DNA from: Deefgea piscis
GTDB taxonomy: Bacteria > Pseudomonadota > Gammaproteobacteria > Burkholderiales > Chitinibacteraceae
Reading direction: 5' to 3'
Length of the DNA: 64,000 nucleotides
NCBI RefSeq assembly: GCF_013284055.1
Contig: NZ_CP054143.1
Span: 2,914,001-2,978,000, forward strand
Shown: positions 46,953 to 62,364 of the stretch, piece by piece
Layout of the letters: each line of letters opens with the position of its first letter
Position numbering within the stretch: the stretch's first letter is position 1
Position numbers and translations under genes: made by a program
Notes under the pieces: generated by a model
Databases searched by the model: none
Told to the model about the DNA's origin: nothing
Seen by the model: the letters and a program-made list of their open reading frames with translations, nothing else

Positions 46953-46970
46953 TTGACACTCCAACCTTAA

Positions 46971-47102: not shown

Positions 47103-47235
47103 CCCAAAGTCAAAATCACACTTCAAGCCCACCTGATTTACTAAAGATAATCAGCTTTTAACCCTCTTTTACATTCTCGCCATCATTGTATTGCACTCTC
47201 GTATTTAAATGAGCTATTGCTCATCGAGGTGCATC

Positions 47236-48747
47236 ATGTCTACTAGCTTTCAGCGTGCGGTTCTTGAGAGTATCTTCGCAAAAGTATTGTATTTATTTAC
47301 TAGGCTGGCCATACCCCCAATGGTTTTAACGCAAGTGGGGTTGCCAGAATATGGACTTTGGTCAATTTCTTTTGTTCTAGTGGGGTATTTAGGGCTTTCG
47401 GTTTCTGGACTAGCGACCGTTTATGTGCGGGAAATAGCTAAAGCTTTTGAGCAACAAGACGCGCATCGCGCCAGCGGCATGCTCAGTACTGGCGTGGCGC
47501 TGGCTTTGCTGCTTGGTAGTGGCTTTTGTTTGGGTTTAACGTTATTGATGCCTTGGCTTTTAGGTAAATTTGAAGTGAGCCCTGCGCTACACCCACTCGC
47601 GACTTTACTAATGCTCACAACTGCTTTTGTCTTTCTCGCTGATTTAACCTTGGGTGCATGGGGTTATGTATTACATGGCTTAAATCGTGTCCATGAGCAA
47701 CAGCGTATTTGGGTTGCGAGCTTTATGCTCGAATGGTTGATAATTGCAAGCTTGCTCTACCGGAATTGGGGTATGACTGCGCTATTGGGCGGCTTTGTGC
47801 TCCGTTATGTATTTTCAATCAGCTGTGCATGGTGGCGAGTACATCTAATCTGGCCCGACTTGCAGCTCAGACCCAAATTTGTGAGCAAAGTCTATCTTCA
47901 GCCGTTTCTTAAATTAGGCATGAAAAGCCAATTGAGCGATACGTTCGCCATGATTTTGCATTCAGCAGATCGTGTTTTGGCGGGCGTGCATTTTGGTAGT
48001 GCGGCAACGGCCCTTGTCGACTTGGGTAGCAAATTACCAGCGACAGCCACGTCGATTTCGTCGGGGATTAGCGCAGTCGTCTTGCCGCGCTCTGCCTGCA
48101 TGGATAAAGCTCAGTTAGCCGAGTTCTATCCTAAGGCTCTGCGACTGGCTCTATTTTCATTGTTATGGATTATGCCGCTCATTGTTTCCTGCGCGCCAGC
48201 GATTCATCTTACATGGCTAGGACTCAGGCCCGAATCAGCGCTCATCCTGCAAATGCTGCTTTGGCTGACGCCCGCTTGGCACCTACACACTTTAACGGGG
48301 TGTGCATCCAGCGCTTTGCGCGGGCAAGCCGAGCTAAGATTGGAGTTTGTATACCATATTCTGCGCCTTATTTCTGCCGGCATCGCCTATCTCAGCGCAA
48401 CTAGTCTGCTGCAATTTATTGCTTACTTTACGATAGGCAATGGGCTTGCTGCTGTGATTTATTTGCTCATCGCAAGCCAGCGTCTCTCTATGCCGCCTGC
48501 GCTAGTTTTCCGCCAAACGCTATGGCCACTTCTGATTGTTTATACCTTGGGCTACAGCTTTTCGTGGTTTTGGCCATGGCAACTGATCAGCCGCAACATG
48601 GCCGCACTGGAATTAGTTCAAGCGAGCAGTCTATTTATGCTCATTTTGTTTTGGGCGATTTGGAAATTGGTTTTAACTCAAAGCGAAAAACAGTGGCTAA
48701 CTAATCAATGCACAAAGTTTTTCAAACGTGAGGTTTATCATGCTTAA
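47236..48747 (+). CDS. Polysaccharide flippase (Wzx-like, PST/MATE superfamily)
   Basis: This 503-residue protein has 12-14 predicted membrane helices and starts MSTSFQRAVLESIFAKVLYL. The N-terminal part (LTQVGLPEYGLWSISFVLVG) resembles O-antigen and exopolysaccharide flippases, which move lipid-linked repeat units to the periplasm. The ATG at 47236 has GAGGT nearby and is preferred to an ATG at 47209. Its end overlaps the wza-like gene by 8 bases. It is the first visible gene of the exopolysaccharide cluster. Confidence 0.82.
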   Translation: MSTSFQRAVLESIFAKVLYLFTRLAIPPMVLTQVGLPEYGLWSISFVLVGYLGLSVSGLATVYVREIAKAFEQQDAHRASGMLSTGVALALLLGSGFCLGLTLLMPWLLGKFEVSPALHPLATLLMLTTAFVFLADLTLGAWGYVLHGLNRVHEQQRIWVASFMLEWLIIASLLYRNWGMTALLGGFVLRYVFSISCAWWRVHLIWPDLQLRPKFVSKVYLQPFLKLGMKSQLSDTFAMILHSADRVLAGVHFGSAATALVDLGSKLPATATSISSGISAVVLPRSACMDKAQLAEFYPKALRLALFSLLWIMPLIVSCAPAIHLTWLGLRPESALILQMLLWLTPAWHLHTLTGCASSALRGQAELRLEFVYHILRLISAGIAYLSATSLLQFIAYFTIGNGLAAVIYLLIASQRLSMPPALVFRQTLWPLLIVYTLGYSFSWFWPWQLISRNMAALELVQASSLFMLILFWAIWKLVLTQSEKQWLTNQCTKFFKREVYHA

Positions 48748-49726
48748 GCTAATCCCATACATATTGATGAGTACGGTTTTGATGGCCTGCAGCTCGATGC
48801 CAACGAATATCCCCAGCAATACACAGTCATTTCAACCAGCGCAAAAATCAGAGCAAATAGACTACGCCAGCCCCGAGGTTTTGATGGAATTAGAACGCGG
48901 CGGTGAGAATATTTATCGCCTCGCCGAAGGGGATTCATTGCAAATTACCGTTTGGAATCGTCCAGAACTATCCGGCAAGCAATTACTCGGGCCTGATGGA
49001 CGCCTCACCATTCCACTGGCGGGCACAATGAAACTCAACGGAGAAACCAGAGAAACTGCTGCTAAACAAATAAGCGACTCACTATCACCGTATATACGTA
49101 AACCTGCTGTATTTGTTGGCGTTGATCAATATACTGGCAATAGAGTAACAATCTTAGGCCGAGTTCAAAATCCAGGTGTACAGCAATTTGATCGACCTCC
49201 CACTTTATTAGAAGCCTTGGCTCGCGCGGGGTCTTTGCCTGTTATCGACAAACAAGCTACTTTAACTCGCGTTGCTGTTTTTCGCGGTCGGGATCGCATT
49301 ATCTGGGTTGATCTAAAGAAACTACTCAATCGCGGCGAACTGGCTTACAACATCAGCCTAAAACCCAATGATCTAGTGTACATACCCGATTCTTTCGATA
49401 CCTTGGTGTATGTCTTGGGTGCGGTTCACAAACCCGGCGCGTATCGATTAACGCCTGACATGTCACTCATGGATGCGCTATCCCAAGCGGGCGGACCTAA
49501 CGATGACGCCGCGCCCGAGCAAATCGCCATTTACCGCCCTAGCAAACAAGCGAACGAAACCACCCCACTCAAAACTTTGCTAAATCGTGACAAGATGGTC
49601 AACTTTTCTCTTGAAGAAGGTGATGTCATTTTTGTTCCAAAAAGTAGCGTTGCCGAGGCGGGTTATGTAATTCGGCAACTTATTCCCGGATTGTCCATAC
49701 TAACCATGGGTTTGGGCGCTTTTTAG
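48740..49726 (+). CDS. Wza-type polysaccharide export lipoprotein
   Basis: This 328-residue outer-membrane protein has a lipoprotein signal (LMSTVLMAC). It has a Poly_export domain, YRLAEGDSLQITVWNRPEL, with LLGPDGRLTIPLAGTMKL, then two SLBB domains (VTILGRVQNPGVQQFDRPP and VYVLGAVHKPGAYRLTPDM). It ends in an amphipathic helix suitable for the outer-membrane pore of Wza. It exports polysaccharide. It is shorter than E. coli Wza (about 380 residues). The ATG at 48740 overlaps the flippase stop and has GAGG upstream. The H-NOX gene follows after 12 bases, so both are probably cotranscribed. Confidence 0.93.
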   Translation: MLKLIPYILMSTVLMACSSMPTNIPSNTQSFQPAQKSEQIDYASPEVLMELERGGENIYRLAEGDSLQITVWNRPELSGKQLLGPDGRLTIPLAGTMKLNGETRETAAKQISDSLSPYIRKPAVFVGVDQYTGNRVTILGRVQNPGVQQFDRPPTLLEALARAGSLPVIDKQATLTRVAVFRGRDRIIWVDLKKLLNRGELAYNISLKPNDLVYIPDSFDTLVYVLGAVHKPGAYRLTPDMSLMDALSQAGGPNDDAAPEQIAIYRPSKQANETTPLKTLLNRDKMVNFSLEEGDVIFVPKSSVAEAGYVIRQLIPGLSILTMGLGAF

Positions 49727-49738
49727 GAGACGGTCAAT

Positions 49739-50284
49739 ATGTACGGCATTGTGAATAAAGCATTACAAGAAATGGTATGCGCGGATTACGGTGGCGAGAC
49801 TTGGCAACAAATTTTGCTCAAAGCTGACATTTCGGATGAGTTCTTTCTATCAAGCGAGGCATACCCAGACTCAACAACCTACTCCTTAGTCGGAGCTGCA
49901 TCGGCCATCACCGGACTACCTGCAGAGCAATTACTGCAACAATTTGGGCGCTACTGGGTGCTCGAAACAGGGCAACGCAGCTATGGTCATTTACTCAAAG
50001 CAGGCGGGGAAAATCTACAAGATTTCCTAATCAACCTACCCAATTTCCATGCCCGTATTTTTTTGATTTACCCCAATCTACAACCCCCTGAATTTTTATG
50101 TGAGCCAAATGGATTGCAAGGCGTTCGGCTCAAGTATTTTTCACATCGCGCAGGATTAGCGCCTTTTGTGGTCGGATTACTCTTTGGTTTAGGCGAGTTG
50201 TTTGAAACCGCCGTCACGGTAAACCAAAGCAAAAGTCGTGCGACAGCGAATGACTTTGATGAATTTCTCGTCGCCTGGCAATAA
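49739..50284 (+). CDS. H-NOX heme-based gas sensor protein
   Basis: This 181-residue stand-alone H-NOX protein starts MYGIVNKALQEMV. The proximal heme ligand is His104 (LPNFHARIF). The heme-propionate motif YxSxR is complete at Y133, S135 and R137 (YFSHR). H-NOX domains bind NO, and in some lineages O2, at ferrous heme, and pass the signal to a partner protein. Here the partner is most likely the HNOBA-PP2C protein encoded 2 bases downstream. GGAG lies before the ATG. Lack of a clear distal Tyr was not verified by alignment, so NO rather than O2 selectivity is inferred. Confidence 0.94.
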   Translation: MYGIVNKALQEMVCADYGGETWQQILLKADISDEFFLSSEAYPDSTTYSLVGAASAITGLPAEQLLQQFGRYWVLETGQRSYGHLLKAGGENLQDFLINLPNFHARIFLIYPNLQPPEFLCEPNGLQGVRLKYFSHRAGLAPFVVGLLFGLGELFETAVTVNQSKSRATANDFDEFLVAWQ

Positions 50285-50286
50285 GC

Positions 50287-52314
50287 ATGCAAGCCGAACA
50301 TCTACGTCTTCCCGCGAGTGTTTTTCCCTTTCATTTTCGACTAGATAGAACACTCAAATTCGTGGCGTTTGGACCTGCGCTGACACGCGTGATTCCAAAT
50401 CTCGCTATTGGGCTGCAATGGCAAACATTAATTAGCCAAGTAAGGCCAAGCACCGCGATTGAAAACATTTGGTCTAGCACGCCAGTGATGCAGGCTCGTA
50501 CCTTGTATGTGTTTCGTGTCCTCAGTAATCAGCTACTTCTTCGTGGCCAAGTGCTATGTGACGAAACAAGCGACTCCCTGCTTTTTTTGGGCTCACCGTG
50601 GCTCAATGATCCGGCACAACTGCCTGCTTACGGTTTGTCACTAAACGATTTTGCGGTTCACGATGCAAGCACTGATTTATTGCAAGTAATCCAAGATTTA
50701 AAAAATTCATTACAAGAAAGTCGAGAAATCGCGAACCTTTTTCAAAAGCAACGCGCACTCTTACACAACATTTTGAACACCGCCCCCGATGCAATTATCA
50801 CGAGCGATGCCAAAGGGTGTGTTGAAAGTTTTAACCCAGCGGCTCAGGCTATGTTTGGCTGGAGTGAGCCTGAAATGCTGGGTAAAGATGTCGCCATTTT
50901 GACTGCATCAGAATATACCTCAAGCCACCACGAATACTTAGCCACTGCCTCGGCGCGAGCTTTCAGCCCTCATTTTAATCGCCGCCGAGAGGTCATCGCG
51001 CGTCGTCGTGACAACGAGGAGTTTCCCGCAGAAATTTCACTGAGCAGCCTGCAAATCGGGGATGAAATTCACTTCACCGCGATTGTTCGTGACATTAGTG
51101 AGCGTAAAGCGCAACAAATGGCGCTTACCGAATCGCGAGAGCGTGAATTGCAACTCGGCCATGATATTCAACAGTCTTTGCTTTTTGGTACACCACGGAG
51201 TTTACGCGGACTGGAGATCTCGGCATTTACACAGCCCTCGCAAGGGATTGATGGGGACTTCTTTGATTTTTTCACTTTGGGCGAACAATGCCTTGATGTG
51301 TTCACGGGTGATGTGATGGGCAAAGGCGTTGTCGCAGCCATGATTGGTGCCGCTTTAAAAAGTCAATACAACCGCAGCATGGCCGAGCTACTCGGCGCCA
51401 ATCACGGCCAAGCCCCGGATACTGATCAGATCATCAATAGTGTCCACACCCGAGTAACGCCTAAATTGCAGCGGCTTGAATCCTTTGTCACCTTGATTTT
51501 TGCGCGTATTGATTTGCTCAACAATCGCATCAGTTACATCAACGCAGGTCACCCTGAGGGATTAATCTTTACCGCCAATGGCGCTATCATTTCCTTAAGC
51601 GGTGATTTTTTACCCATGGGCGTCGATCACCGCGAGCAATATAAATCGATTGATACACCCTTTTTATCTGGCGACTTTTTATTATTATTTTCCGATGGAG
51701 TTAGCGAAGCACGTAACGAACACCTTGAATTACTCGGAATCGAACCCGTGATAGATCTCGTGCGCCGACTGATCAGCGCGGCTATTCCGCCCGCCATTAT
51801 TTTGCAAAAGTTGCGGCAACTCGTGGATTTGCATGAATCATCGCATCGGCGCTCTGATGACTTTACCGCCATCGGAATTTTTAGACACAACGATAACGCC
51901 CCGACCAGTCGAGAGTTTATGCGCACCATGAGTGTATTAACACCGCTGCGTCAATGGCTGCGAAATCAAATCTCACTCGATGAAACCCAACTGGCCGCCA
52001 TTGAACTGGCAGCAGTTGAAGTTGCTACCAATATTATTCGGCATGTGGCGATCACCTTGGCCGACACCCCGTTTGTAGTTCACCTCAGCGAACTAAATGA
52101 GTTACTTTGGATTGATTTTTATTATGTGGGAGATGCTTTTGATTCCACTCAGGTCCCGATGCCTGATTTTAGTGGCGGGCGTGAAGGCGGCTTTGGTATG
52201 TATATCATTCGGCACTGTGTCGATGATGTGCAATACAGCACCCCCGCGAGCGATGTAAATCGAATTCGTTTGCAAATACGACGGCAGACTCAAGCAGAAA
52301 CAGCTATAAATTAG
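50287..52314 (+). CDS. HNOBA-PAS-SpoIIE phosphatase-RsbW-like ATPase signalling protein
   Basis: This 675-residue protein has residues 1-135 as an HNOBA domain, as in soluble guanylate cyclases: FPFHF, LLLRGQV (84-90), LLFLGSP (98-104) and GLSLNDFAVHDAS (116-128). A coiled coil (132-160) and a PAS domain (160-272) follow. Residues of about 305-520 are a SpoIIE/PP2C phosphatase with DGDFFDF (D324), GDVMGKG (D342), LFSDGVSEA and RSDDFTAIGI. Residues of about 545-672 are an RsbW-like HATPase with EVATNIIRH and GGFGMYIIRH. In the ATPase G1 box, the usual DxG reads YVG. It is coupled to the H-NOX gene. Likely output is dephosphorylation of an STAS-type antagonist, not seen in this window. Confidence 0.9.
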   Translation: MQAEHLRLPASVFPFHFRLDRTLKFVAFGPALTRVIPNLAIGLQWQTLISQVRPSTAIENIWSSTPVMQARTLYVFRVLSNQLLLRGQVLCDETSDSLLFLGSPWLNDPAQLPAYGLSLNDFAVHDASTDLLQVIQDLKNSLQESREIANLFQKQRALLHNILNTAPDAIITSDAKGCVESFNPAAQAMFGWSEPEMLGKDVAILTASEYTSSHHEYLATASARAFSPHFNRRREVIARRRDNEEFPAEISLSSLQIGDEIHFTAIVRDISERKAQQMALTESRERELQLGHDIQQSLLFGTPRSLRGLEISAFTQPSQGIDGDFFDFFTLGEQCLDVFTGDVMGKGVVAAMIGAALKSQYNRSMAELLGANHGQAPDTDQIINSVHTRVTPKLQRLESFVTLIFARIDLLNNRISYINAGHPEGLIFTANGAIISLSGDFLPMGVDHREQYKSIDTPFLSGDFLLLFSDGVSEARNEHLELLGIEPVIDLVRRLISAAIPPAIILQKLRQLVDLHESSHRRSDDFTAIGIFRHNDNAPTSREFMRTMSVLTPLRQWLRNQISLDETQLAAIELAAVEVATNIIRHVAITLADTPFVVHLSELNELLWIDFYYVGDAFDSTQVPMPDFSGGREGGFGMYIIRHCVDDVQYSTPASDVNRIRLQIRRQTQAETAIN

Positions 52315-52343: not shown

Positions 52344-53036
52344 ATGTTCATTGCCATTGTCGAAGACGACCCAATTCAAGCTGACATGCTTGCCTTAACA
52401 CTCAAAAGCGGCGGGCATGAAACCAACGTATTTCATACCAGCCTCGCCTTCTTTGCAACACTCAAAGACACGCACTTTGATTTATTGCTATTAGATTGGA
52501 ATTTACCTGATTACTCTGGAGGTATGATCATCAAATGGGTGCGTGAGAACATCGGTTGGCAAATACCCATTATGGTCGCTACTGCAATAGATGATGAAAG
52601 TAATGTAGTAGCAGGGCTAAAAGCAGGGGCAGATGATTATTTGGTCAAGCCGATTAAACCCTTGGAAATTCTTGCGCGGATTGACGTGCTGGCCCGTCGC
52701 TTCAAATCGATTGCCCCTCAACTCGTGCATCTTGGTTTGTATGAAATCGATACCAGCCAGCGCCTGATTCGCAAATCGGGCAGCGAAGTTGAACTTACAC
52801 AAAAAGAATATGATTTAGCGCTGTATTTATTTCAGCATCCAGGTAAGTTATTTTCTCGAATGAATTTACTCGAAAAGATTTGGGGTTTGAATGTAGAGAT
52901 TGATACTCGCACCGTCGACACCCATATCAGCCGTTTACGCAAAAAATTATCGCTCGATGGACAGCTGCAATGGCAACTCACCTCTGTCTACGGCTATGGT
53001 TATCGACTAGAATCGACTTCGCTCGTCACCCCTTAA
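52344..53036 (+). CDS. OmpR-family response regulator
   Basis: This 230-residue two-domain regulator has a receiver domain with phospho-acceptor D51 (LLLDWNLPD), acidic pocket VEDD and lysine in VKPIKP. Its DNA-binding winged helix has ELTQKEYDLALYLFQHPGK and RTVDTHISRLRKKL. It follows the HNOBA-PP2C gene by 29 bases and is probably in the same unit. Its TAA stop shares the sequence ttaa with the stop of the convergent Hpt gene. The convergent kinase is its likely phosphodonor, either directly or through the Hpt protein, but this is inference. Target promoters may be the EPS genes. Confidence 0.92.
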   Translation: MFIAIVEDDPIQADMLALTLKSGGHETNVFHTSLAFFATLKDTHFDLLLLDWNLPDYSGGMIIKWVRENIGWQIPIMVATAIDDESNVVAGLKAGADDYLVKPIKPLEILARIDVLARRFKSIAPQLVHLGLYEIDTSQRLIRKSGSEVELTQKEYDLALYLFQHPGKLFSRMNLLEKIWGLNVEIDTRTVDTHISRLRKKLSLDGQLQWQLTSVYGYGYRLESTSLVTP

Positions 53037-53350
53037 GCAAGCAACACGGCTGCGGCTGCTTGTTCAAGCTTTTCAAAATCACGCAACGATAATTTCGCGT
53101 CACGCGGCAACGCTTGCAGCTCTTTCTCAAGTTGCCTTGCTGTGTTGGCCAATGAATCAAAGCCCAGTGAACCTGCAGCACCAGCCAAGCGATGCAGCTC
53201 ATTCAGTACATCCTCATCTGCCTGCCAAATTAGTGTCGGTATTGGTGACGTCGGAACGATTTGCTTGAGCCGAGCTGGCAAGCCGGCCACAAACTTAGCT
53301 TTTAACTCAATCATCCCAGCTGCAAACAGCGCTTCGTTAAATGCGGGCAC
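53033..53350 (-). CDS. Hpt domain phosphotransfer protein
   Basis: This 105-residue four-helix-bundle protein has the phospho-His in ELHRLAGAAGSLGF (His53). The start is GTG at 53350, supported by GGGAG about 8 bases upstream inside the end of the receiver gene; this gives a 14-base overlap. Longer readings lack a ribosome site. The last codon's stop TAA overlaps the plus-strand regulator's TAA by 4 bases. It would pass phosphate between a receiver and a response regulator in a relay with the kinase and receiver encoded upstream. Confidence 0.85.
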   Translation of the reverse strand: MPAFNEALFAAGMIELKAKFVAGLPARLKQIVPTSPIPTLIWQADEDVLNELHRLAGAAGSLGFDSLANTARQLEKELQALPRDAKLSLRDFEKLEQAAAAVLLA

Positions 53351-53732
53351 AATATAACTCCCAATATTCCTGCAACAATTGTGGCAAAAGCATGGGATCA
53401 AATGGCTTCTGAGCGACAAAATCTGCGCCAGCATCCAGTAAACCAGACAATTCTGTTTGTGATACTTTTGCGGTCAGCATCACCACACAAACCGAGTCGC
53501 CGCCTTTTATTTTTCGCAACAGCGGTATAAATTCTTTGCCGCTCATTTCAGGCATCATCACATCAAGCAAAATCATTTGCGGAAGAGTATCTTCATGTAT
53601 TGATTTGATTGCAATACTTGCAAGCACATACTGCTGGACATCAAAAGCACCCAACGTGCTGAGACACAGATGAATCAAATGCCGAATATCATCATCATCC
53701 TCAACGACAATAATCTGACGTAATTGACTCAT
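53337..53732 (-). CDS. Single-domain response regulator (CheY-like)
   Basis: This 131-residue receiver has the acidic pocket VVEDDDD (10-15), phospho-acceptor D57 in ILLDVMMPEMSG and conserved Lys in QKPFDP. There is no output domain. It starts directly after the kinase stop (TAA then ATG) and overlaps the Hpt gene, so the three genes form a tight operon. It would act as an intermediate or phosphate sink. Confidence 0.92.
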   Translation of the reverse strand: MSQLRQIIVVEDDDDIRHLIHLCLSTLGAFDVQQYVLASIAIKSIHEDTLPQMILLDVMMPEMSGKEFIPLLRKIKGGDSVCVVMLTAKVSQTELSGLLDAGADFVAQKPFDPMLLPQLLQEYWELYCARI

Positions 53733-55181
53733 TTATGCGCCCTTCAAAGGTAATAAGACGATGAATTCACTCCCACCGCCTTGAGCGGCTTGATACGAAA
53801 TAGTGCCTCCCAAAGCGGAGCAGAGCTGCCGAGAGATCGCCAAACCCAAACCTGTTCCACCGTACAGTCTGGAGTCACTGGCATCGGCCTGCGTAAAGGG
53901 GTCAAACAAATGTGGCAAAAAACTTCCGGCAATCCCTGGCCCACGATCTTGCACAATAATCTGCCAAACAGAGTCTGCAGTACTGGCAATGACTTTAACC
54001 TCGCTGCGCGCAGGTGAGTATTTACAAGCATTGGAGATTAAATTCGACATAATTTGCCCAAAGCGCATTTTGTCCGTACGTATCTCGCAAGTGGCATCAA
54101 TCTCAACATATAATTGTAAATCCACATCATATTTCGCCGCATAGCCCTGATTTTCTTCAACAAACTCAGCGAGCAAAGTCAGTAATGGATAAACACCTAG
54201 CTCTAGTTGCAATGCGCCGGCCGCCGCTTTATTTAAATCCAATAACTCATTGACCATATGCAGTAATCGCGAGGCATTACGATCAGCAATCTCCAGTAAG
54301 GGGAACGCACGCTCATCCACCGCAGCAAATTGAGAGCTCTGTAGCATTTTCAAAGAGCCAATAATCGAAGTTAGAGGTGTGCGCAGTTCATGACTGAGCG
54401 TGGCGATAAATTGCTGCTTAAGTCGATCAACACGCTGGCGCTCACTCACATCACGCAAAATCAGCAGCCAAAACTGCTCATTACCTTGCTCAACAAGCGT
54501 CAAACCCAGCTCCACTGCAATCGCATCTCCGATTAGAGGTTGCATCTCCAGCTGCTGCAGCTGACCATGATGCGCGCCATGTTTGGCTTTGCCAAAATCT
54601 AGACCTGGCAAAAATGCCTTCACCTGCAGCCCAAGCATCATATCGCGCTCTGTTTTCAACAATCGCTCCGCCGCTAAATTAAGCCCTTGTATCATTTCAT
54701 CGCTATCTACGATCAGAATGCCATCAAAACTATTTTCACTGACGGCCATCGATTTACTCAACAGCACAGCGTGTTGCTGCTGCAAGACCAAAACTCGAGC
54801 CAGATTTTTGAACTTGCTGGCTAAAATGGCGGGCTCTGCCGGCTTTTGCAAAAAGTCATCAGCCCCCGCCTCTAAGGCCGCCAGCAAATGTTGCTCACCC
54901 TCCAAACCAGATAAAACAACAACAGGCACCCATTTGTTCCCAGCCAGATTTTTAATACGACGAGTCACTTCAAAACCATCGATGCCAGGCATCAGCAAAT
55001 CCAGCAAAACCATATCAGGCTTAGCCTGCTCATATGCGAGCAGCGCAGTCTCACCGTCCTCAGCCAAGATGACGCGATGACCCATCTTTTGAACCAGACT
55101 ACTCAAAACCCGGCGTGTACTCGCAATATCATCAACCACCAACACGGTTAATGCAGTCGCAGCAAAATCATGAAAAGGCAT
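53733..55181 (-). CDS. Receiver-PAS-histidine kinase
   Basis: In this 482-residue cytoplasmic kinase residues 9-130 are a receiver domain with phospho-acceptor D61 (MVLLDLLMPGIDG). About 145-250 is a PAS domain. HisKA has phospho-His264 (LSHELRTPLTS) and HATPase_c has NLISNACKYSP, DRGPGIAG and GGTGLGLAISR. No membrane helix is present, so the signal is internal. It is the first gene of the kinase-receiver-Hpt operon, divergent from the sugar transferase genes. It sits between the two halves of the exopolysaccharide cluster. Confidence 0.92.
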   Translation of the reverse strand: MPFHDFAATALTVLVVDDIASTRRVLSSLVQKMGHRVILAEDGETALLAYEQAKPDMVLLDLLMPGIDGFEVTRRIKNLAGNKWVPVVVLSGLEGEQHLLAALEAGADDFLQKPAEPAILASKFKNLARVLVLQQQHAVLLSKSMAVSENSFDGILIVDSDEMIQGLNLAAERLLKTERDMMLGLQVKAFLPGLDFGKAKHGAHHGQLQQLEMQPLIGDAIAVELGLTLVEQGNEQFWLLILRDVSERQRVDRLKQQFIATLSHELRTPLTSIIGSLKMLQSSQFAAVDERAFPLLEIADRNASRLLHMVNELLDLNKAAAGALQLELGVYPLLTLLAEFVEENQGYAAKYDVDLQLYVEIDATCEIRTDKMRFGQIMSNLISNACKYSPARSEVKVIASTADSVWQIIVQDRGPGIAGSFLPHLFDPFTQADASDSRLYGGTGLGLAISRQLCSALGGTISYQAAQGGGSEFIVLLPLKGA

Positions 55182-55275
55182 AAGCAGAACTCAAGTTTTA
55201 CAAGTTGATCACAATTGCATGGGCGAGAGATGCTTCAATCACAGCATAGACCACGCCTTCAGAAGGGGGTGCAAA

Positions 55276-55989
55276 ATGCTCTCCAAAGTGATTCAACCCA
55301 ATTTGCGGGAACTCGAACAACGATTTAGTCAGCCCGAACAGAGACGCAAAGCCGTTGCAGCGCTACGCCGTACTTTGATATTCAAACAAAGGTTCGGTCA
55401 CGTCCTAAGGCGCACATGGGATATCGGAGCGGCGCTCTTTGCCCTTGTGCTCGGCTGGCCTCTCTGGTTGTTTTTGGCACTCATTATCAAGCTCACTGAT
55501 GGTGGCCCAGTACTGTATTGGCAATCTCGCGTGGGCTATCGGGGGCGACTTTTTGCATTTCCCAAGTTTCGTAGCATGCGAATCAATGCGGATCAATGCC
55601 AAGGAATACTTGAAAACCAACATGCTGATCAACGCACTTTCAAACTCAAAAACGATCCTCGAATTACCCCTATTGGTCGTTGGATGCGCCGTTTTAGTTT
55701 GGATGAAATACCACAATTGTGGTGCGTACTCATCGGCGACATGACTTTAGTCGGCCCTCGCCCCCCCCTCCCCAAAGAAGTCCAACTTTATGGTTTACAT
55801 GCCCGCCAACGGCTTGAAATCACACCGGGTCTCACTTGCATTTGGCAAATCAGTGGCCGTTCAACGATTGCTTTTGACGGCCAACTCGCGATGGATCTGC
55901 AGTACATACGCCAGCGCAGTATCAAACTCGACATCCGTATTTTGTTACTGACTTTGCCTGCGGTTTTCGTTGGGCATGGCGCCTATTAA
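55276..55989 (+). CDS. Initiating sugar-phosphate transferase (PF02397)
   Basis: This 237-residue monotopic enzyme has one helix (IGAALFALVLGWPLWLFLALI) and then the catalytic core: DGGPVLYWQSRVGYRGRLF, FPKFRSMRINAD, RRFSLDEIPQLWCVLIGDMT and LVGPRPPLPKEV. It transfers a sugar-phosphate to undecaprenyl phosphate and so starts repeat-unit assembly. AGAAGGGGG lies before the ATG at 55276. It lacks the multi-helix N-terminal domain of WbaP/WcaJ. The GPRPPLP codons contain a run of eight C. The downstream GT26 gene follows after 13 bases. Confidence 0.93.
   Translation: MLSKVIQPNLRELEQRFSQPEQRRKAVAALRRTLIFKQRFGHVLRRTWDIGAALFALVLGWPLWLFLALIIKLTDGGPVLYWQSRVGYRGRLFAFPKFRSMRINADQCQGILENQHADQRTFKLKNDPRITPIGRWMRRFSLDEIPQLWCVLIGDMTLVGPRPPLPKEVQLYGLHARQRLEITPGLTCIWQISGRSTIAFDGQLAMDLQYIRQRSIKLDIRILLLTLPAVFVGHGAY
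55761..55773 (+). repeat. Poly-C tract inside the initiating transferase gene
   Basis: Eight consecutive C (55761-55768), then T and four more C, lie within the coding sequence. Slippage of one base would shift the frame about two-thirds of the way through the enzyme. Confidence 0.8.
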
Positions 55990-56002
55990 AAGGATCAGGA
56001 TC

Positions 56003-58432
56003 ATGACTTCATTTTCCCAATACAGCTATCAGCGATATGCCAAACCCCTTGGCCGAGTCGTAGCAACCATCGTATCCATGATCATTTGGCCATTCACACG
56101 ACTGGGTATAGGAATACAGCACCAGCAGCAGCTACAAAAGATCGCGAAAGGGCACTTACAATGGATTGGTGCAAATTCGGCCGGCACGATCGGACTCATT
56201 TCAAGCTACCGGTTACATTTACGCATGGCACTGGCGCTCAACGATGAAGCCGAGTGGGATAGCCATGACCAGAATTCACGTGGTTGGCGCTTTGATCTAG
56301 CCCTGCTGTTGCGCTACGGTTGGAGCTTATTGATTGGACACACCGTGAGCCAAACCGAAGACCGCTGGCCTCTACTTGGTTTGTGGCTGGATAATTTGCA
56401 ACACGCACAAATTGAATCGCAACTTCAAATTTGGCGCCAGCAAAGTCATCAACGCCGGATTGCTTTTGTTAATCCACATTGCGCCAATCTGGCCAGTAAA
56501 GACCCGCTGTATCGTGGGGTGCTCAATTCAGCCGATTTACTTTTACCCGATGGCAGCGGCGTGTTACTGGCGAGCCGTATTTTGAAAACCCCTTTGCAAG
56601 AAAATACCAATGGCACGGATTTATTTCCTATTTTGTGCCAGCAATGGCAAAAAGATGGCGCAAACTTGTATTTATTAGGTGGTCGCCACGGCGTCGCGGA
56701 AGAAGTTGCACGGCACTTGCTAAGAAAATACCCCGGCCTGCATATCGCGGGAACCCACCATGGATATAGCGCCAGTAAAGATACCCCAGCATTAATTGAA
56801 GACATCCAGCAAAGTAAAGCCGATGTTTTGGTCGTCGCGATGGGCGTACCCTTACAAGACAATTGGATTGCCTGCTACCAAGAAGACACAGGAGTCCCTT
56901 TAGCAATCGGTGTGGGTGGTTTATTCGATTTTCTATCTGGCCGAATTCCCCGCGCGCCCGTTTGGTTGCGCGAATTGGGCTTGGAATGGTGTTGGCGCTT
57001 ATTACAAGAGCCATCCAGAATGTGGCAGCGTTATTTGGTGGGCAATTTCACCTTTCTCGCTCGCGTAATGCGGCAAAAATTTCAACTCGCCCCCAAAGCA
57101 CTTCTACCAAATACGCGCGAGCAACATCACGAACTGGATCACCGCCCTCAAGCCGTGGTGCTAACTGATTATGCACTTTGGCAGGGAGACGATCCAATTG
57201 GCACGCTATTGACGCCCATCGTGGGACATAGCCTGCTTGAACTGAGCCTCATTCGGCTGGTCGAACAGGGCGTGAAATTAGTCCACTTATTTGCCGATGA
57301 GGGCTACTCTGCGATAGCTACACAACTAGGAAAAGGTGAGCGCTGGGGTATTGAGATTCGATACTACCTTTCTGGTCAGCAGCTACAAACTCGCCGCCGT
57401 CTTGCTGCCCTTCCCTTACCAGAGCATGTCTGGCTAGTGGCACCTGGCTGCTTACCGAGTAGCAATCTAACCAGTTCGACCCAATGCCAGTGGGAGTTGG
57501 CCAAGGGCATCTGGTCTGGTTGGGCGTATCTCAATTCAAAACGGCTCAAATTAACACTGAATCAAAGCCAACTTCCCTTACCACCCAATACAGCACTTTT
57601 TAATGGGCTTAGCTTGCGCAACGAGCAAGAGCTCAATCGAGCTCTGCCTGAACTATTGAAAAAAGCACCGCCCTATATTCCAGACTACCAAGAAATCAAA
57701 CATCAAGTCTGGCTGGCCGCAGGTGTGGTTTGTGAGAAAAACGTCACGCTGGATGGGCCGGTATTAATTGGCCGCAACTGCTTAATCCGGCAAGGAAGCC
57801 ACATTGGGCCCAATGTGGTGATCGGAGAAGGCTGCGTGCTAGATCGACAAGTTGATATCCACAACAGCCTACTCAAACCTTTTAGCTATATCGCGGCACA
57901 AATGAGCATTGGCCACAGTCTCGTGGGCAATCGAAAACTGCACTTGGTGCGCGACAACACCATTCTGCACTTCAAAGCCGAGGAATGTTTAATTGATGAA
58001 ATGGGCAAACCACTGAGCCATCCGAGTATGGCTGAGCGAGTGCAAGCCGTAGTGGCTTTCATTTGGCTGCGTGGGCACCAGCAACAATTCGATCTCGCAC
58101 GTTGGCAAAACGTAGCCAATCGATTGAAAAAAGTCATACATGGCGAATGTCATTTGATTGGTCTGCCGGTATTACCCAGCAAAATGGACGGTACATTAGC
58201 AAGAAAAAGTCTGCGACTCGGGGCAATTCGCCTATCTGAATTACAAGCAGAAACCTTACCTGCAAAAGGTCTTAGCCGAGCTGAGCAAGATTGCCTTACC
58301 GATTTGTATGGCGCAGCGGTACCGCACCATTTGAACTGGGAAAAACTGCAGCACTTAGTTCACACCTTAAAACGCGGTACAAAAAGCACATTTTACAAAT
58401 CGGACATCATTTCGCCGCCCAGTCCGCTGTAA
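56003..58432 (+). CDS. WecG/TagA-type glycosyltransferase fused to nucleotidyltransferase-like and left-handed beta-helix domains
   Basis: This 809-residue fusion has a hydrophobic segment near residues 18-37 and an unassigned region to 150. Then comes a GT26 domain (about 151-358): AFVNPHCANLASKDP, LLLPDGSGVLLASRIL, NGTDLFPIL, VAMGVPLQDNWIA and GVGGLFDFLSGRIPRAPVW. Residues 383 to about 565 resemble a sugar nucleotidyltransferase fold (LTPIVGHSLLELSLIRL), but the GGxGTR nucleotide motif is missing. Residues 572-645 are hexapeptide repeats (GPVLIGRNCLIRQGSHIG). It probably adds the second sugar to the lipid-linked unit. AGGATC precedes the ATG. It ends with a basic tail. Confidence 0.8.
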   Translation: MTSFSQYSYQRYAKPLGRVVATIVSMIIWPFTRLGIGIQHQQQLQKIAKGHLQWIGANSAGTIGLISSYRLHLRMALALNDEAEWDSHDQNSRGWRFDLALLLRYGWSLLIGHTVSQTEDRWPLLGLWLDNLQHAQIESQLQIWRQQSHQRRIAFVNPHCANLASKDPLYRGVLNSADLLLPDGSGVLLASRILKTPLQENTNGTDLFPILCQQWQKDGANLYLLGGRHGVAEEVARHLLRKYPGLHIAGTHHGYSASKDTPALIEDIQQSKADVLVVAMGVPLQDNWIACYQEDTGVPLAIGVGGLFDFLSGRIPRAPVWLRELGLEWCWRLLQEPSRMWQRYLVGNFTFLARVMRQKFQLAPKALLPNTREQHHELDHRPQAVVLTDYALWQGDDPIGTLLTPIVGHSLLELSLIRLVEQGVKLVHLFADEGYSAIATQLGKGERWGIEIRYYLSGQQLQTRRRLAALPLPEHVWLVAPGCLPSSNLTSSTQCQWELAKGIWSGWAYLNSKRLKLTLNQSQLPLPPNTALFNGLSLRNEQELNRALPELLKKAPPYIPDYQEIKHQVWLAAGVVCEKNVTLDGPVLIGRNCLIRQGSHIGPNVVIGEGCVLDRQVDIHNSLLKPFSYIAAQMSIGHSLVGNRKLHLVRDNTILHFKAEECLIDEMGKPLSHPSMAERVQAVVAFIWLRGHQQQFDLARWQNVANRLKKVIHGECHLIGLPVLPSKMDGTLARKSLRLGAIRLSELQAETLPAKGLSRAEQDCLTDLYGAAVPHHLNWEKLQHLVHTLKRGTKSTFYKSDIISPPSPL

Positions 58433-58459: not shown

Positions 58460-59515
58460 ATGAAAACCCTCATTTACATCTTGCACAGCGGCCAGCGCTA
58501 CGGAACAGAAAGAATGGCGCTGGCCACGCTGGCACAACTAAAAACCTGCACCCAAGCCGTGTTATTCGCCCCGCTTGGGCCAGTTCAACAACTCGCCCAA
58601 GAGCAAGGCGTTTTATGCCTTGGCTTTCGCAACAGACTTGAATTAGCTCGCCAATTATGGCGCTATCTGGCCCAGCCTGAGCTCTGTATTTGTAGCACAG
58701 GGGTGAGCCAAGCCTTGCTGGTGATTTTACTCACACTAATGCGCGGCAAATGGCCCGATCAGATCCATATCGTCCACGGCGGCACCAATGAAAGATTGAG
58801 TTATGGTCGCAAACATTGGCTGCAATATTTAGGGGTGAAGCTGGTTGCGGTTTCTGAATTTGTCAAAACCCGACTATTGGCTCATGGCTGCAAGAGCAAG
58901 CACATCACGGTCATTGAAAACTTTCTGACTACACGGCAAAGCCATCGCCCAGCCTTTACCCTGAGTGGCATCGCAAAAATTGCCATGATCACGCGCATCG
59001 ACCCCATCAAACAGGTCGGCGTGGCCATCGCCGCATGGCGTAAATACCCCAATCTACCGGAGCTACACATCTGCGGTACAGGCTGGCAAAGCGATGAACT
59101 ACAGACGCAAAGCGCACACCTTACGCAAGTGAAATGGCACGGATTCGTTGAGTATACGTCCAGAGTACTCATTCAATCTGATCTGTATATACATACCTGC
59201 GATAGCGAGCCATTCGGCTTGGCGATTCTTGAGGCCATGGCGGCTGGTGTACCTGTTCTTGTACCCGATCAGGGTGGCGCTGCTGACTTGGTCAACAATG
59301 GGGTCACTGGATTTTACTTCCGCGCTGGCGACAGCCACGATTTGGCGCTGCAAATTCAATGGATTAATCAATTACCCACAAGCACGCTGAACGCTATTGT
59401 TGCCAATGCAAGCGCTCAATTGGCTAATCGGTTTTCAGCAACCCAGCGCATCGCGGACTACGCCAGATTGTGTGGCATCAAGGGGATACATGATGAATCA
59501 GCCACCCTTAATTAG
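58460..59515 (+). CDS. GT4 family glycosyltransferase
   Basis: This 351-residue GT-B enzyme has an N-terminal acceptor domain (YILHSGQRYGTERMALATL) and a C-terminal donor domain. The donor domain holds ITRIDPIKQVGVAIAAW and the E-x7-E motif EPFGLAILEAMAAGVPVL, typical of retaining GT4 transferases. It adds one sugar of the exopolysaccharide repeat. AGGGG precedes the ATG. Its last 26 bases overlap the following GT2 gene. Donor and acceptor cannot be read from the sequence. Confidence 0.92.
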   Translation: MKTLIYILHSGQRYGTERMALATLAQLKTCTQAVLFAPLGPVQQLAQEQGVLCLGFRNRLELARQLWRYLAQPELCICSTGVSQALLVILLTLMRGKWPDQIHIVHGGTNERLSYGRKHWLQYLGVKLVAVSEFVKTRLLAHGCKSKHITVIENFLTTRQSHRPAFTLSGIAKIAMITRIDPIKQVGVAIAAWRKYPNLPELHICGTGWQSDELQTQSAHLTQVKWHGFVEYTSRVLIQSDLYIHTCDSEPFGLAILEAMAAGVPVLVPDQGGAADLVNNGVTGFYFRAGDSHDLALQIQWINQLPTSTLNAIVANASAQLANRFSATQRIADYARLCGIKGIHDESATLN

Positions 59516-60479
59516 CGTCGTTGTTATCGGCCATAACGAAGGGCAGCGTTTAATCCGATGCCTTACTTCAGTGCGCGAGTGTAGCTATCCCAATATTGAG
59601 CTGCTCTATATTGACTCCCACTCTAGCGACGATAGCGTAGCCCAAGCGGCAAACTTGAGCGACAGCGTCTATCTGGCCAGTCAAAAAGGGGCGGCGGCGG
59701 CTCGCAATGTCGGCCTAGCGCACGCTCAAGGCGACTGGATTATGTTTTTAGATGGTGACACGATATTGGCACCTTTGTTTTTGTCACAAGCCTTAGCCGA
59801 TTTACAGGCTGACACGCAACTCGCTTGTGCCTGGGGGCATCGTGTTGAGAAAGATCCACAGCAATCAATTTATGTACGAGTACTTGATCTAGATTGGCGT
59901 TACCCACCGGGTGAAACCGCATTTTGTGGCGGAGATGCCTTGTTTCGACGCGAAGCGCTGCTTCAAGTCGAAGGTTTTAATGCACGCTTATTAGCCGGAG
60001 AAGAGCCAGAAATATGCTTCTGGCTACGCAAAAAAGGCTGGAAAATAATGCACCTCGATCTGGCGATGACGCAGCATGATTTGGCCATCACACAATTTAA
60101 GCAATATTGGCAACGCACCTGTCGCGCCGGTTATGCCTATGCCGCAGTCAGCGCAATGACACAGGATTTTTGGATTCAAGAGGTGCGTCACAACTATCGA
60201 CAATCGAGTATTTTGCTCAGCCTAATGCTGATCTTTATGCTGGGTGCAATATGGCAACCACTCCTTAGCGCCGCCGCATTACTCACCTTAACCCTATTAA
60301 TGCTCCGCAGCAGCTGGCGTGCACGTTGGCGCAGCCCACATTGGCACAACTTATTACTCTATGGTGTGCATAGCTGGTTTGCACAAATTCCAATCACAAT
60401 GGGGATTTGGCGCTGCAAACGTGACCGAGCGGCAAAAAGGCGAGCCTCTTTTGGTAACTATAAAGAGGTCAAAAAATGA
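59490..60479 (+). CDS. GT2 family glycosyltransferase
   Basis: This 329-residue GT-A enzyme starts MMNQPPLISVVVIGHNEGQ, has SHSSDDSVAQAA and the metal-binding DxD-like LDGD in WIMFLDGDTI. Two C-terminal hydrophobic helices (SSILLSLMLIFMLGAIW and LLSAAALLTLTLLML) anchor it in the membrane. The start is inside the preceding GT4 gene, with AGGGG just upstream; either of two adjacent ATGs (59490, 59493) may be used. Its stop overlaps the acyltransferase start (ATGA). It adds a sugar to the repeat unit. Confidence 0.9.
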   Translation: MMNQPPLISVVVIGHNEGQRLIRCLTSVRECSYPNIELLYIDSHSSDDSVAQAANLSDSVYLASQKGAAAARNVGLAHAQGDWIMFLDGDTILAPLFLSQALADLQADTQLACAWGHRVEKDPQQSIYVRVLDLDWRYPPGETAFCGGDALFRREALLQVEGFNARLLAGEEPEICFWLRKKGWKIMHLDLAMTQHDLAITQFKQYWQRTCRAGYAYAAVSAMTQDFWIQEVRHNYRQSSILLSLMLIFMLGAIWQPLLSAAALLTLTLLMLRSSWRARWRSPHWHNLLLYGVHSWFAQIPITMGIWRCKRDRAAKRRASFGNYKEVKK

Positions 60480-61084
60480 AACGGCTCCTCTATCTGTGTT
60501 GTTCCTTATGGCTAGGCGCTTTACTTGATGTCTTTGCCCAGATTCAACGTGGCACTGCATGGTTACGCTTGGCTTGCCGGATTCCGCTAGACCCAAGCAA
60601 TGTTATTTTAGGCAAGGTCGAATTACATGGTTCCCGCCAAATCCAATTCGGTCTGCGCGCTTTGATCTATCCTGGGCTTTATCTTGAAACCCAAGATTTG
60701 GGGCGCATCACGTTGGGAGATGGCATCGTCATCTCTCGTGGCGTGCACTTAGTATCTCACAGCCACATCAGCATTGGTTCTGGGTCGATGTTGGGTGAAT
60801 ACAGCAGCGTGCGCGATGCCAACCATCGCAGGCAATCGTCAACTCCGCTGCGCGAGGCGGGCTTTACTGCTGCCGCGATCATCATTGGCAAAGAAGTCTG
60901 GATTGGCCGCGGAGCCATTATTTTGCCTGGTGTTTGTATCGGTGATGGCGCGACCATCGCGGCAAATGCGGTTGTTACCCATGATGTACTCGCAGGAACC
61001 ACCGTGGGTGGCGTACCCGCTAAACCACTTCGTAGCGCAAAGGACATTCAAAAATGGACCCGAGTAAACGCCCAATTTTATTAG
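60476..61084 (+). CDS. Hexapeptide-repeat acyltransferase
   Basis: This 202-residue left-handed beta-helix protein of the WcaF/LbH-MAT type has repeats from about residue 45 to 180: ITLGDGIVISRGVHLVSHSH, IGSGSMLGEYSSVRD, IIIGKEVWIGRGAIILPGV and IGDGATIAANAVV. The N-terminus has a short hydrophobic stretch (LLYLCCSLWLGALLDVF). Such enzymes O-acetylate or otherwise acylate exopolysaccharide sugars. It is coupled to the GT2 gene by ATGA overlap and overlaps the next glycosyltransferase by 31 bases. Confidence 0.88.
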   Translation: MKRLLYLCCSLWLGALLDVFAQIQRGTAWLRLACRIPLDPSNVILGKVELHGSRQIQFGLRALIYPGLYLETQDLGRITLGDGIVISRGVHLVSHSHISIGSGSMLGEYSSVRDANHRRQSSTPLREAGFTAAAIIIGKEVWIGRGAIILPGVCIGDGATIAANAVVTHDVLAGTTVGGVPAKPLRSAKDIQKWTRVNAQFY

Positions 61085-62364
61085 TTGCCTACCAATGTGC
61101 CCCGAATATGGGTTCAGTATCGCAAATTGGTTGGGAATGGTATCAGCGCCTGACCAAACGTCGCCCCGTCACGCTGATCACCCACAGTCGAAATCGTGCG
61201 GCACTTGAAAAAGCAGGTGCACCATTCAACGGCAGCACCATTGAATACATTGATACTGAATGGCTGGCAGGGCCACTCTATCGAACCGCATCACGTCTTT
61301 TTCCCGGCAAAGAACATGCCATTTTTCTACTCAGCTCACTCGATTACTATCTTTTTGATTTTCTAGCTTTACGTCGTGCACGTCAAAAACGTGCACAAGG
61401 CAATAAGTGGGCGGCAGTGCACGTCCCTACACCTGTTAGCTCGGCAGCAGGCACCCGACTTCATCAACTGGGTTTGCCACTGATACGCGGCCCACTCAAT
61501 TGTGGCTTAGGTAATCCAGCGGGATTTGATGAAGTCTTGCAGCAAGAATCCCAATGGCTCAATCGTGGTCGACAACTTGGGCAATGGTTTTCTGCGCTGT
61601 TAGAAAAATCGAGTGATCGGCAAATCACTCTAACAGCCACCACTGCAACACGAGCCGTGCTCCCACCGAACCAGCGCACTCAGCCATTACTTGAGAATGG
61701 CATTGATCTCCGCCATTTCACCGCCAGCCCCGTGCTTGAGCGCAGTGCCCGCGACACGCTCAAAGTCTTATTTGTCGGTCGAATGTTACCTGTAAAAGGC
61801 GTTAACTTTCTCCTTCAAGCATGCGCGCAGTTAATCGCTCAGGGCTATCCGATTGAAATCACCCTCGTTGGCGATGGTATCAAACGCCAAGCATGGGAAA
61901 CAGAGTCTGTCGAATTGGGTATTGGCCAGCACTGCCATTTCACTGGAAATTTACCTTTAGCTGAAGTGCCCTTGCTGATGCAGCAATGCCATGTATTTTG
62001 CCTGCCTTCGATTCGCGAGTCTGGCGGCGCAGTGATTCTCGAAGCCATGGCTTGTGGTCGGCCGGTGATTGCTTATCGCTTTGGCGGCCCAGCAGAGTTG
62101 GTAACCACCGAAACGGGCGTACTTCTTGATGCGCATTGCGCATCCGAGTTAGTCGAGCAATTGAAAGAGACTTTGCGTCAATGCCACCAACAACCAAAGC
62201 AATGGGCGGCGATGGGCGCAACTGCCGCCCGCTTATTGCATCAGCCACACCCCATGGGTTTTGACTGGGAACACAAAATTGATCTCGTTGAGCAGTTGTA
62301 CGAACAAATGCAAAACCACGAGGATTTACCTTCTTGTCACAATTTAGCGGCGCGAGTTAATTAA
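61054..62364 (+). CDS. GT4 family glycosyltransferase
   Basis: This 436-residue GT-B transferase has the N-terminal VAYQCAPNMGSVSQIGWEW, a pattern found in WcaC-like and related enzymes. The C-terminal donor domain carries LFVGRMLPVKGVNFLLQA, then RESGGAVILEAMACGRPVI with E-x7-E-type spacing. AAGGA precedes the ATG at 61054, which lies inside the end of the acyltransferase gene. It is the last glycosyltransferase visible in the cluster. Donor sugar unknown. Confidence 0.92.
   Translation: MDPSKRPILLVAYQCAPNMGSVSQIGWEWYQRLTKRRPVTLITHSRNRAALEKAGAPFNGSTIEYIDTEWLAGPLYRTASRLFPGKEHAIFLLSSLDYYLFDFLALRRARQKRAQGNKWAAVHVPTPVSSAAGTRLHQLGLPLIRGPLNCGLGNPAGFDEVLQQESQWLNRGRQLGQWFSALLEKSSDRQITLTATTATRAVLPPNQRTQPLLENGIDLRHFTASPVLERSARDTLKVLFVGRMLPVKGVNFLLQACAQLIAQGYPIEITLVGDGIKRQAWETESVELGIGQHCHFTGNLPLAEVPLLMQQCHVFCLPSIRESGGAVILEAMACGRPVIAYRFGGPAELVTTETGVLLDAHCASELVEQLKETLRQCHQQPKQWAAMGATAARLLHQPHPMGFDWEHKIDLVEQLYEQMQNHEDLPSCHNLAARVN

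Follow-up and report, generated by a model that had tools for sequence, protein, structure and literature searches.

In Vibrio fischeri, SypE inhibits biofilm formation by promoting the phosphorylation of SypA (PMC3610818), whose target has been described as still open (PMC8256260) and for which a role as anti-sigma antagonist has been considered improbable (PMC11112999). In the same species, HnoX restrains HahK, and nitric oxide (NO) lowers biofilm (PMC12369376). The genes neighbouring those of H-NOX haem gas sensors have been reviewed as coding for kinase, GGDEF, EAL, FIST and Nudix proteins, among others, without SpoIIE or STAS in the text and figure legend, the neighbourhood figure being limited to families that occur in 20% or more of genomes (PMC8738867). 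S-helix proteins in general can carry PP2C outputs, as reported in 2006 (PMC1592074), and control of a PP2C dimer by a helical linker, which is published for RsbU, is also predicted for RsbP, Rv1364c and other proteins (PMC12143880). Here we describe a locus of Deefgea piscis (Chitinibacteraceae), found in a stretch of 64,000 nucleotides called the window below (contig NZ_CP054143.1, positions 2,914,001 to 2,978,000), in which the gene of a stand-alone H-NOX is followed directly by that of a protein, P0001, joining an HNOBA domain, a PAS domain, a SpoIIE-type PP2C phosphatase and an RsbW-like HATPase, inside an exopolysaccharide (EPS) locus that also codes for a STAS protein. We consider it rather probable that the EPS locus contains a serine partner switch gated by NO, similar to SypE–SypA and HsbR–HsbA with the receiver replaced by H-NOX and HNOBA. 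In the passages searched of the open-licence literature neither H-NOX nor HNOBA was found joined to SpoIIE or PP2C, nor was H-NOX directly linked to STAS, and no link between H-NOX and PP2C was found in the passages of PMC2828450 or PMC4976288. The components are all known; the joint between H-NOX and a partner switch is new to the literature searched.

The H-NOX gene and its four-domain partner

An earlier note on this DNA had announced a complete stand-alone H-NOX with H104 and a YxSxR motif, and this was borne out. The frame is open from its ATG to the end of its stop codon (Table 1), the protein matches positions 1-162 of the 163 of the HNOB profile (E 3.5e-47, above the Pfam cut-off), and the proximal histidine H104 and the motif residues Y133, S135 and R137 are all present and, in the alignment, identical in the eight H-NOX proteins of the cluster type, i.e., those of the eight family genomes that carry this locus (the cluster genomes, see below). 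F143 aligns with a methionine of Alr2278 and stands at what we take to be the position of the distal tyrosine of O2-binding H-NOX proteins; phenylalanine is found there in 8/8 cluster proteins and in those of three loci from outside the family (L046–L048). A tyrosine in the distal pocket marks O2-binding H-NOX proteins (PMC8738867), and since phenylalanine occupies its position the window H-NOX is predicted to be of the NO type rather than an O2 binder. Some H-NOX proteins answer oxidants through the cysteines of a zinc site (PMC8738867), and the window protein might likewise sense redox state or another ligand instead of NO; however, with the full haem motif and the distal phenylalanine in place, this is very unlikely.

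As the earlier note had stated, P0001 begins two bases past the H-NOX stop codon, which makes a single operon of the two genes very likely. Its frame is open from an ATG, so that a broken or frameshifted gene was rejected for both. Four domains of P0001 score above their Pfam cut-offs and are conserved in the eight genomes, and chance matches were rejected on that ground: HNOBA with 67.8 bits against a cut-off of 23.4 (in two stretches, of which Table 1 gives the better one), PAS with 53.0, SpoIIE with 103.5 and HATPase_c_2 with 44.1 bits. The four profiles named in the note (PF07700, PF07701, PF07228 and PF13581) were thus all matched above cut-off, and the HNOBA domain that it had placed in residues 1-135, like the phosphatase and RsbW-like ATPase, was found. 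When the whole genome was searched, HNOBA matched in two pieces, at profile positions 10-64 and 111-191, which leaves the central part of the profile unmatched. The assignment is backed by profiles of solved structures, because the N-terminus matches 2p04 and 2p08 (E 1e-17 and 1.6e-17), as well as the beta-1 subunit of soluble guanylate cyclase (E 3.5e-12 to 9.2e-12) and its alpha-1 subunit. We take 2p04 and 2p08 to be H-NOX-associated domains, the structure table naming them signal transduction histidine kinase. In the same search the phosphatase matches SpoIIE and the two-component-regulator entries 3es2 and 3eq2 (named RssB), and a match to Rv1364c spans the phosphatase into the ATPase part.

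An AlphaFold2 model of P0001 built on 16 aligned sequences (mean predicted local distance difference test, pLDDT, 83.3; predicted template-modelling score, pTM, 0.58) contains two long helices, residues 127-165 and 271-299, which link the sensor domains to the phosphatase. Its top fold match in the Protein Data Bank is the RsbU–RsbW part of Rv1364c (3ke6, E 6.4e-21), followed by FixL PAS dimers; no HNOBA structure was found among the best 50 of 1147 fold matches. The PP2C motifs DGDFFDF (just upstream of the Pfam match), GDVMGKG, SDG and SDDFT are intact, and the aspartate motifs, presumably metal-binding, are kept in 18/18 aligned proteins.

In the HATPase domain the N-box residues E578 and N582 and the glycine-rich GGFG lid are intact, and the G1 aspartate is replaced by tyrosine; kinase activity is doubtful because this replacement is found in all eight cluster proteins. 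The domain might then serve for docking or as an anti-sigma part only, the phosphatase acting one way and being opposed by an unknown kinase. An HsbR-like REC-PP2C-HATPase protein encoded elsewhere in the window genome keeps the aspartate (DSGEG by eye), which favours such a loss; on the other hand, N-box and lid are preserved, and 8 of 10 aligned non-cluster relatives also lack the G1 aspartate, so that its absence may be the norm of the subfamily. We regard a HATPase without kinase activity as less likely than not.

The PAS domain has FixL as its closest solved structure (E 7.7e-29), in agreement with the fold matches, and at the position that we take to be that of the FixL haem-ligand histidine there is a histidine in 5/8 cluster proteins, including that of the window, and in L046–L048. 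P0001 might accordingly sense two gases, NO through H-NOX and HNOBA and O2 or redox state through a haem-bearing PAS. Three Deefgea members of the cluster carry S, Y or P at this position, so that such a function would not be general, and likeness to FixL is common among haem-free PAS domains, which also weighs against it; a two-gas sensor is unlikely.

The STAS protein of the locus

A stand-alone STAS protein of 113 residues, of the anti-sigma-antagonist type, is encoded in the same EPS locus, 21.5 kb downstream and past the end of the window (L013, window-equivalent 73800). It scores 71.3 bits and carries the motif DSSGLG, as SpoIIAA does; the motif is present in all four cluster STAS proteins aligned, and a STAS gene lies in the locus in 8/8 genomes. 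Ser57, the first serine of the motif, aligns with an alanine in one SpoIIAA chain, presumably a mutant of the phosphorylated serine. In the window genome the gene shares 4 bases with that of an NTP-transferase, and in the seven other cluster genomes the two genes abut. Three SpoIIE domains and ten STAS matches were found in the window genome as a whole. The other two SpoIIE proteins, the HsbR-like one and one with a 32-bit match, have a STAS gene of their own at about 0.6 and 1.1 kb, respectively, and by elimination the STAS protein of the EPS locus is therefore the likeliest partner of P0001. Cross-talk is possible, since the genome holds the other STAS proteins and the HsbR-like protein.

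Just upstream of the STAS gene, 9 kb beyond the window end, there is also a gene for a PilZ protein (L013:12943-13689, 35.1 bits). RxxxR and DxSxxG-like motifs can be recognised in it by eye, and 7/7 other cluster loci give matches of 22-59% identity; the protein is a possible cyclic di-GMP (c-di-GMP) input to the EPS locus.

Distribution in the family and history of the locus

The survey of co-occurrence that the earlier note had proposed was carried out on 43 genomes of the family Chitinibacteraceae. An H-NOX of the cluster type (E <= 2.4e-85) is found in 8/43 genomes (17/43 with weaker matches), a cluster-type STAS (E <= 3.3e-59) in the same eight (11/43 with weak ones), and a cluster-type Wza, defined by the identities in Table 1, again in the same eight (any match, 41/43). 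The four-domain protein directly follows H-NOX in 8/8 of them. Another genome of the set (G773) has an intermediate H-NOX (1.2e-42) beside an HNOBA-PAS histidine kinase and no cluster-type STAS. In the genus set of seven genomes, HNOBA is found in four. Relative to H-NOX, the STAS gene is placed about 7 kb upstream in G003, G005, G006 and G774, and 21-24 kb downstream in G000, G770, G772 and G787.

The history of these genes is probably not that of their hosts. The window rpoB is 97-99% identical to those of three other Deefgea, as against 62-63% for H-NOX, 53-54% for the PP2C protein and 66-69% for STAS, and the identities to G787, of another genus, are 81, 81 and 83%, respectively; the window STAS is closer still, at 88-89% identity, to those of G770 and G772, which belong to a third genus. 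For H-NOX and PP2C the trees agree in shape, and the STAS tree has the main split in common with them, with G770 and G772 swapped and one node weakly supported; all three disagree with rpoB. The pairwise identities of the three proteins correlate among themselves (r 0.85-0.94) and hardly with those of rpoB (r 0.16-0.34). Since identities and trees agree with each other and conflict with rpoB, the EPS locus has probably moved between genera as a unit, and co-inheritance alone therefore cannot prove that the STAS protein is the substrate; as a proof it was rejected, the linked EPS locus being a confounder.

Related proteins beyond the family

A scan of a genome collection covered 43 loci, searched also with profiles built here. 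Pfam was run on 23 non-cluster HNOBA proteins (L022, L062, L075, L078, L080, L083 and extra frames of L064 and L071 were left out), and 20 of them are histidine kinases, one is a GGDEF-EAL protein, one (L046) carries SpoIIE, and one (L110) runs off its contig before the output domain. This agrees with the statement of the earlier note, and with a review, that H-NOX partners are mainly kinases, cyclases or phosphodiesterases and chemoreceptors (PMC8738867). HNOBA was found at E <= 0.001 in 47/399 genomes of the order, 18 of them over the cut-off, and 38 of the 47 were rejected as HNOBA because the matches were confined to the signalling-helix end of the profile (starting at about 160-184 and running to 216); in the class it was found in 5/369 genomes, three over the cut-off.

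In L046, labelled Eremiobacterota in its metagenome bin, an H-NOX (HNOB 157.5 bits) immediately precedes the same four domains (HNOBA 72.8, SpoIIE 149 and HATPase_c_2 64.9 bits). Upstream of this pair (L046:1-1256) a MerR-like regulator and a short, cysteine-bearing YHS-like protein are recognised by eye, which suggests a metal-related rather than an EPS setting. In L047 and L048, near-identical and counted as one case, HNOB (89.6 bits, the gene being cut by the contig end, and 134.8 bits) precedes a coiled-coil-PAS-PP2C-HATPase protein in which Pfam found no HNOBA match; in L047 the genes of H-NOX, the PP2C-HATPase protein and a STAS protein (58.3 bits) overlap one another. More generally, a STAS frame was found fused or no more than 400 bases away in 11 of the 13 non-family loci with PP2C and HATPase of this type, a set that includes several close relatives and one locus (L055) with the domains in two neighbouring genes; none was seen in the other two, whose contigs end 447 and 144 bases downstream. 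Among the 11 loci with a PP2C match and no HATPase match, STAS adjoins in two.

The exopolysaccharide locus

The EPS setting claimed in the earlier note holds, with a Wza-like gene upstream of the pair and Bac_transf, WecG and other glycosyltransferase genes downstream (Table 1). The Wza-like gene stops 12 bases before the H-NOX start, and the gene of the OmpR-type regulator starts 29 bases after P0001; the order H-NOX, four-domain protein, OmpR regulator is not due to chance, because it is kept in 7/7 other cluster genomes. The genes of the OmpR regulator, HPt, REC, STAS, NTP-transferase and Wzc-like proteins are matched in 7/7 as well. An orthologue of the REC-histidine kinase is found in 5/7, one of the five being incomplete at the edge of its stretch; for the remaining two the compared stretch starts near this gene and gives only a receiver cross-match. 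The initiating sugar transferase and the WecG gene are unmatched in the stretches compared for G003, G005 and G006.

Table 1. The H-NOX/P0001 pair and the genes of its locus, in window coordinates.
Feature	Coordinates	Strand	Basis and conservation
Flippase (Wzx)-like protein by eye, with multiple membrane spans	47209..48747	+	No Pfam match; 55-75% identity in 7/7 other cluster genomes
Wza-like polysaccharide export lipoprotein	48740..49726	+	Poly_export and SLBB; 78-91% identity in 7 other genomes of the 43, next best 38%
H-NOX (HNOB), stand-alone haem gas sensor, 181 aa	49739..50284	+	PF07700, 160.8 bits
P0001, HNOBA - helix - FixL-like PAS - helix - SpoIIE/PP2C - RsbW-like HATPase, 675 aa	50287..52314	+	Pfam, solved-structure profiles, AlphaFold2, fold match
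HNOBA, best Pfam stretch, residues 80-155	50524..50751	+	Pfam
PAS, residues 159-270	50761..51096	+	Pfam, solved-structure profiles
SpoIIE/PP2C domain, residues 334-530	51286..51876	+	Pfam, alignment
HATPase_c_2, residues 551-663	51937..52275	+	Pfam, alignment
OmpR-type response regulator	52344..53036	+	Response_reg 77.0, Trans_reg_C 83.3 bits; 78-90% identity in 7/7
HPt protein	53033..53434	-	PF01627, 35.9 bits; 40-60% identity in 7/7 other cluster genomes
Single-domain receiver (REC)	53337..53732	-	PF00072, 64.4 bits; matched in 7/7, one partial at contig end
REC-histidine kinase with weak PAS between (below cut-off)	53733..55181	-	Pfam
Initiating sugar transferase	55219..55989	+	Bac_transf, 200.6 bits
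WecG-type glycosyltransferase with C-terminal hexapeptide part	55970..58432	+	Glyco_tran_WecG 207.0, Hexapep 29.9 bits
Three glycosyltransferases and a hexapeptide-repeat transferase	58460..62364	+	Domain scan; locus extends beyond the window end
Wzc-like gene after the STAS and NTP-transferase genes			By eye; no Pfam match over cut-off
Glycosyltransferase-like and methyltransferase-like genes after the Wzc-like gene			By eye

Some other genes of the region may be mentioned. Inside the EPS locus, L013:5983-7710 codes for a protein of 575 residues with DUF4842 and DUF4114, perhaps a secreted surface protein, and a protein of 708 residues without Pfam match (window 62393-64000, plus strand, continuing in L013:2394-4520) is perhaps secreted and glycoside-hydrolase-like, with a look-alike by eye in a Chitinilyticum locus (L044:19517-21634). 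Beside the EPS locus, an alpha/beta hydrolase resembling RsbQ (1wom, its best match, E 1.6e-91) is encoded next to a PAS-GGDEF protein (window 44846-46964, minus strand). Modules of this kind control the RsbP phosphatase, and here one is found on a diguanylate cyclase; no RsbQ match was found in the other cluster loci, which gave PAS cross-matches only, and the pair is therefore placed outside the module. Also outside it, an RND transporter (ACR_tran, 1157.9 bits) and an outer-membrane efflux protein (OEP, 181.4 bits) at window 39890-44405 (plus strand) are encoded by ordinary efflux genes.

Proposed mechanism

From the genes, domains, motifs and conservation, which are established from the sequence, we infer the following route. 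The H-NOX haem would bind NO and not O2, and H-NOX would dock on the HNOBA domain of P0001, from which the signal might pass through the two long helices into the PP2C dimer and so control the phosphatase. PP2C would then remove phosphate from Ser57 of the STAS protein, and the HATPase would either add it or only bind around it. Depending on its phosphate state, the STAS protein may allow or block polysaccharide production, probably below the level of transcription as in the case of SypA, while a separate phosphorelay made of the hybrid kinase, REC, HPt and the OmpR regulator would set the transcription of the locus. By analogy with V. fischeri, NO may be expected to lower EPS. The locus would thus resemble both arms of the V. 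fischeri system, with the NO input shifted onto the partner switch.

Several points, besides the doubtful kinase activity, weigh against this route. In the cluster the STAS gene lies 7-22 kb from the phosphatase gene, whereas in the non-family kin the two are adjacent; the EPS locus is a confounder of the shared occurrence of STAS and PP2C, as Wza is found in the same 8/43 genomes; by eye no sigma or anti-sigma gene was seen in the stretch read, no search having been aimed at one; and the last step, from STAS to EPS, is without a worked-out model, because SypA is unlikely to be an anti-sigma antagonist. Moreover, the EPS proteins tried are unmatched on the 5 kb contig of L046, which gives no support to a general tie between the module and EPS. 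Taken with the ten STAS matches and the second, HsbR-like REC-PP2C-HATPase protein of the window genome and with the distance of the cluster STAS, that contig would also fit a pair acting on a STAS protein or target elsewhere, in general stress or motility as CrsR–CrsA and HsbR–HsbA do, its place in the EPS locus being due to hitch-hiking. However, H-NOX, PP2C, STAS and Wza are present or absent together across the 43 genomes, and each of the two further SpoIIE proteins of the window genome has a STAS of its own close by; we hold such a target to be rather improbable. The alternatives weighed in this article are not mutually exclusive.

Returning to the NO-gated partner switch, a more far-reaching form of it is put forward tentatively, with belief slightly outweighed by doubt: H-NOX may directly gate a combined PP2C/RsbW enzyme, acting through STAS on EPS, as the first route from NO to a serine phosphatase, and this arrangement may have arisen twice, via HNOBA in the Chitinibacteraceae cluster and L046 and via a bare coiled coil in L047/L048, some members perhaps adding a FixL-like haem sensor in the same protein. 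If so, partner-switch serine phosphatases would join the outputs known for H-NOX, most of which are histidine kinases and c-di-GMP enzymes, and support would be given to the proposal that sensor modules are exchanged among kinases, cyclases and PP2C phosphatases via helical linkers (PMC12143880). With sensor and likely substrate in one EPS locus, this bacterium offers a tractable case of polysaccharide control by STAS, a question that is open for SypA.

Comparison with known systems

The earlier note was right on the domains, the pairing and the EPS setting, and it overlooked the STAS protein, the phosphorelay (hybrid kinase, REC and HPt), the PilZ protein and the recurrence of the module elsewhere. 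It had itself offered the NO-to-EPS circuit as inference, and so it is taken here. It had also spoken of a different signalling logic. An H-NOX directly beside a partner-switch enzyme is indeed unusual, but the statement went too far, given that polysaccharide control by a kinase/phosphatase and a STAS protein is known from SypE–SypA (PMC3610818) and that H-NOX acts on syp via HahK (PMC12369376). As in the window locus, the syp system has kinase and phosphatase in one protein, a STAS partner in the polysaccharide locus and a hybrid-kinase input (PMC3610818, PMC8256260, PMC12369376, PMC3843225). On the other hand, SypE has the order kinase-REC-phosphatase and is controlled via its REC domain, whereas P0001 has no Pfam match to REC, a different domain order and H-NOX as its input; and in V. 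fischeri NO reaches syp via the histidine kinase HahK and not directly via SypE (PMC12369376).

Another pair of relatives is HsbR–HsbA of Pseudomonas aeruginosa and CrsR–CrsA of Shewanella oneidensis, which share with P0001 the order sensor, PP2C, kinase/anti-sigma and the STAS antagonist, HsbR–HsbA controlling biofilm (PMC6482189). Unlike P0001, HsbR receives its input through a receiver domain fed by HptB, and its targets are FlgM, RpoS and HsbD. The stressosome protein RsbR of Vibrio brasiliensis resembles the window system in that a gas-binding haem sensor feeds STAS and serine phosphorylation (PMC4976288); however, it senses O2 with a globin fused to STAS, in an RsbR/S/T complex and without H-NOX. 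Rv1364c (PAS-PP2C-RsbW-STAS) has the N-terminal PAS, the PP2C and the RsbW fold in common with P0001 (3ke6; PMC12143880). Its STAS domain is fused in the same chain, unlike that of the window locus. To our knowledge, Rv1364c has no HNOBA domain, and we know of no H-NOX partner for it. Finally, the pairs formed by H-NOX with HNOBA histidine kinases or with GGDEF/EAL partners have the H-NOX gene directly upstream of that of the HNOBA protein, exactly as in this locus; the output of P0001 is a PP2C phosphatase with an RsbW-like ATPase, in contrast to the kinase or cyclase of the other H-NOX/HNOBA pairs.

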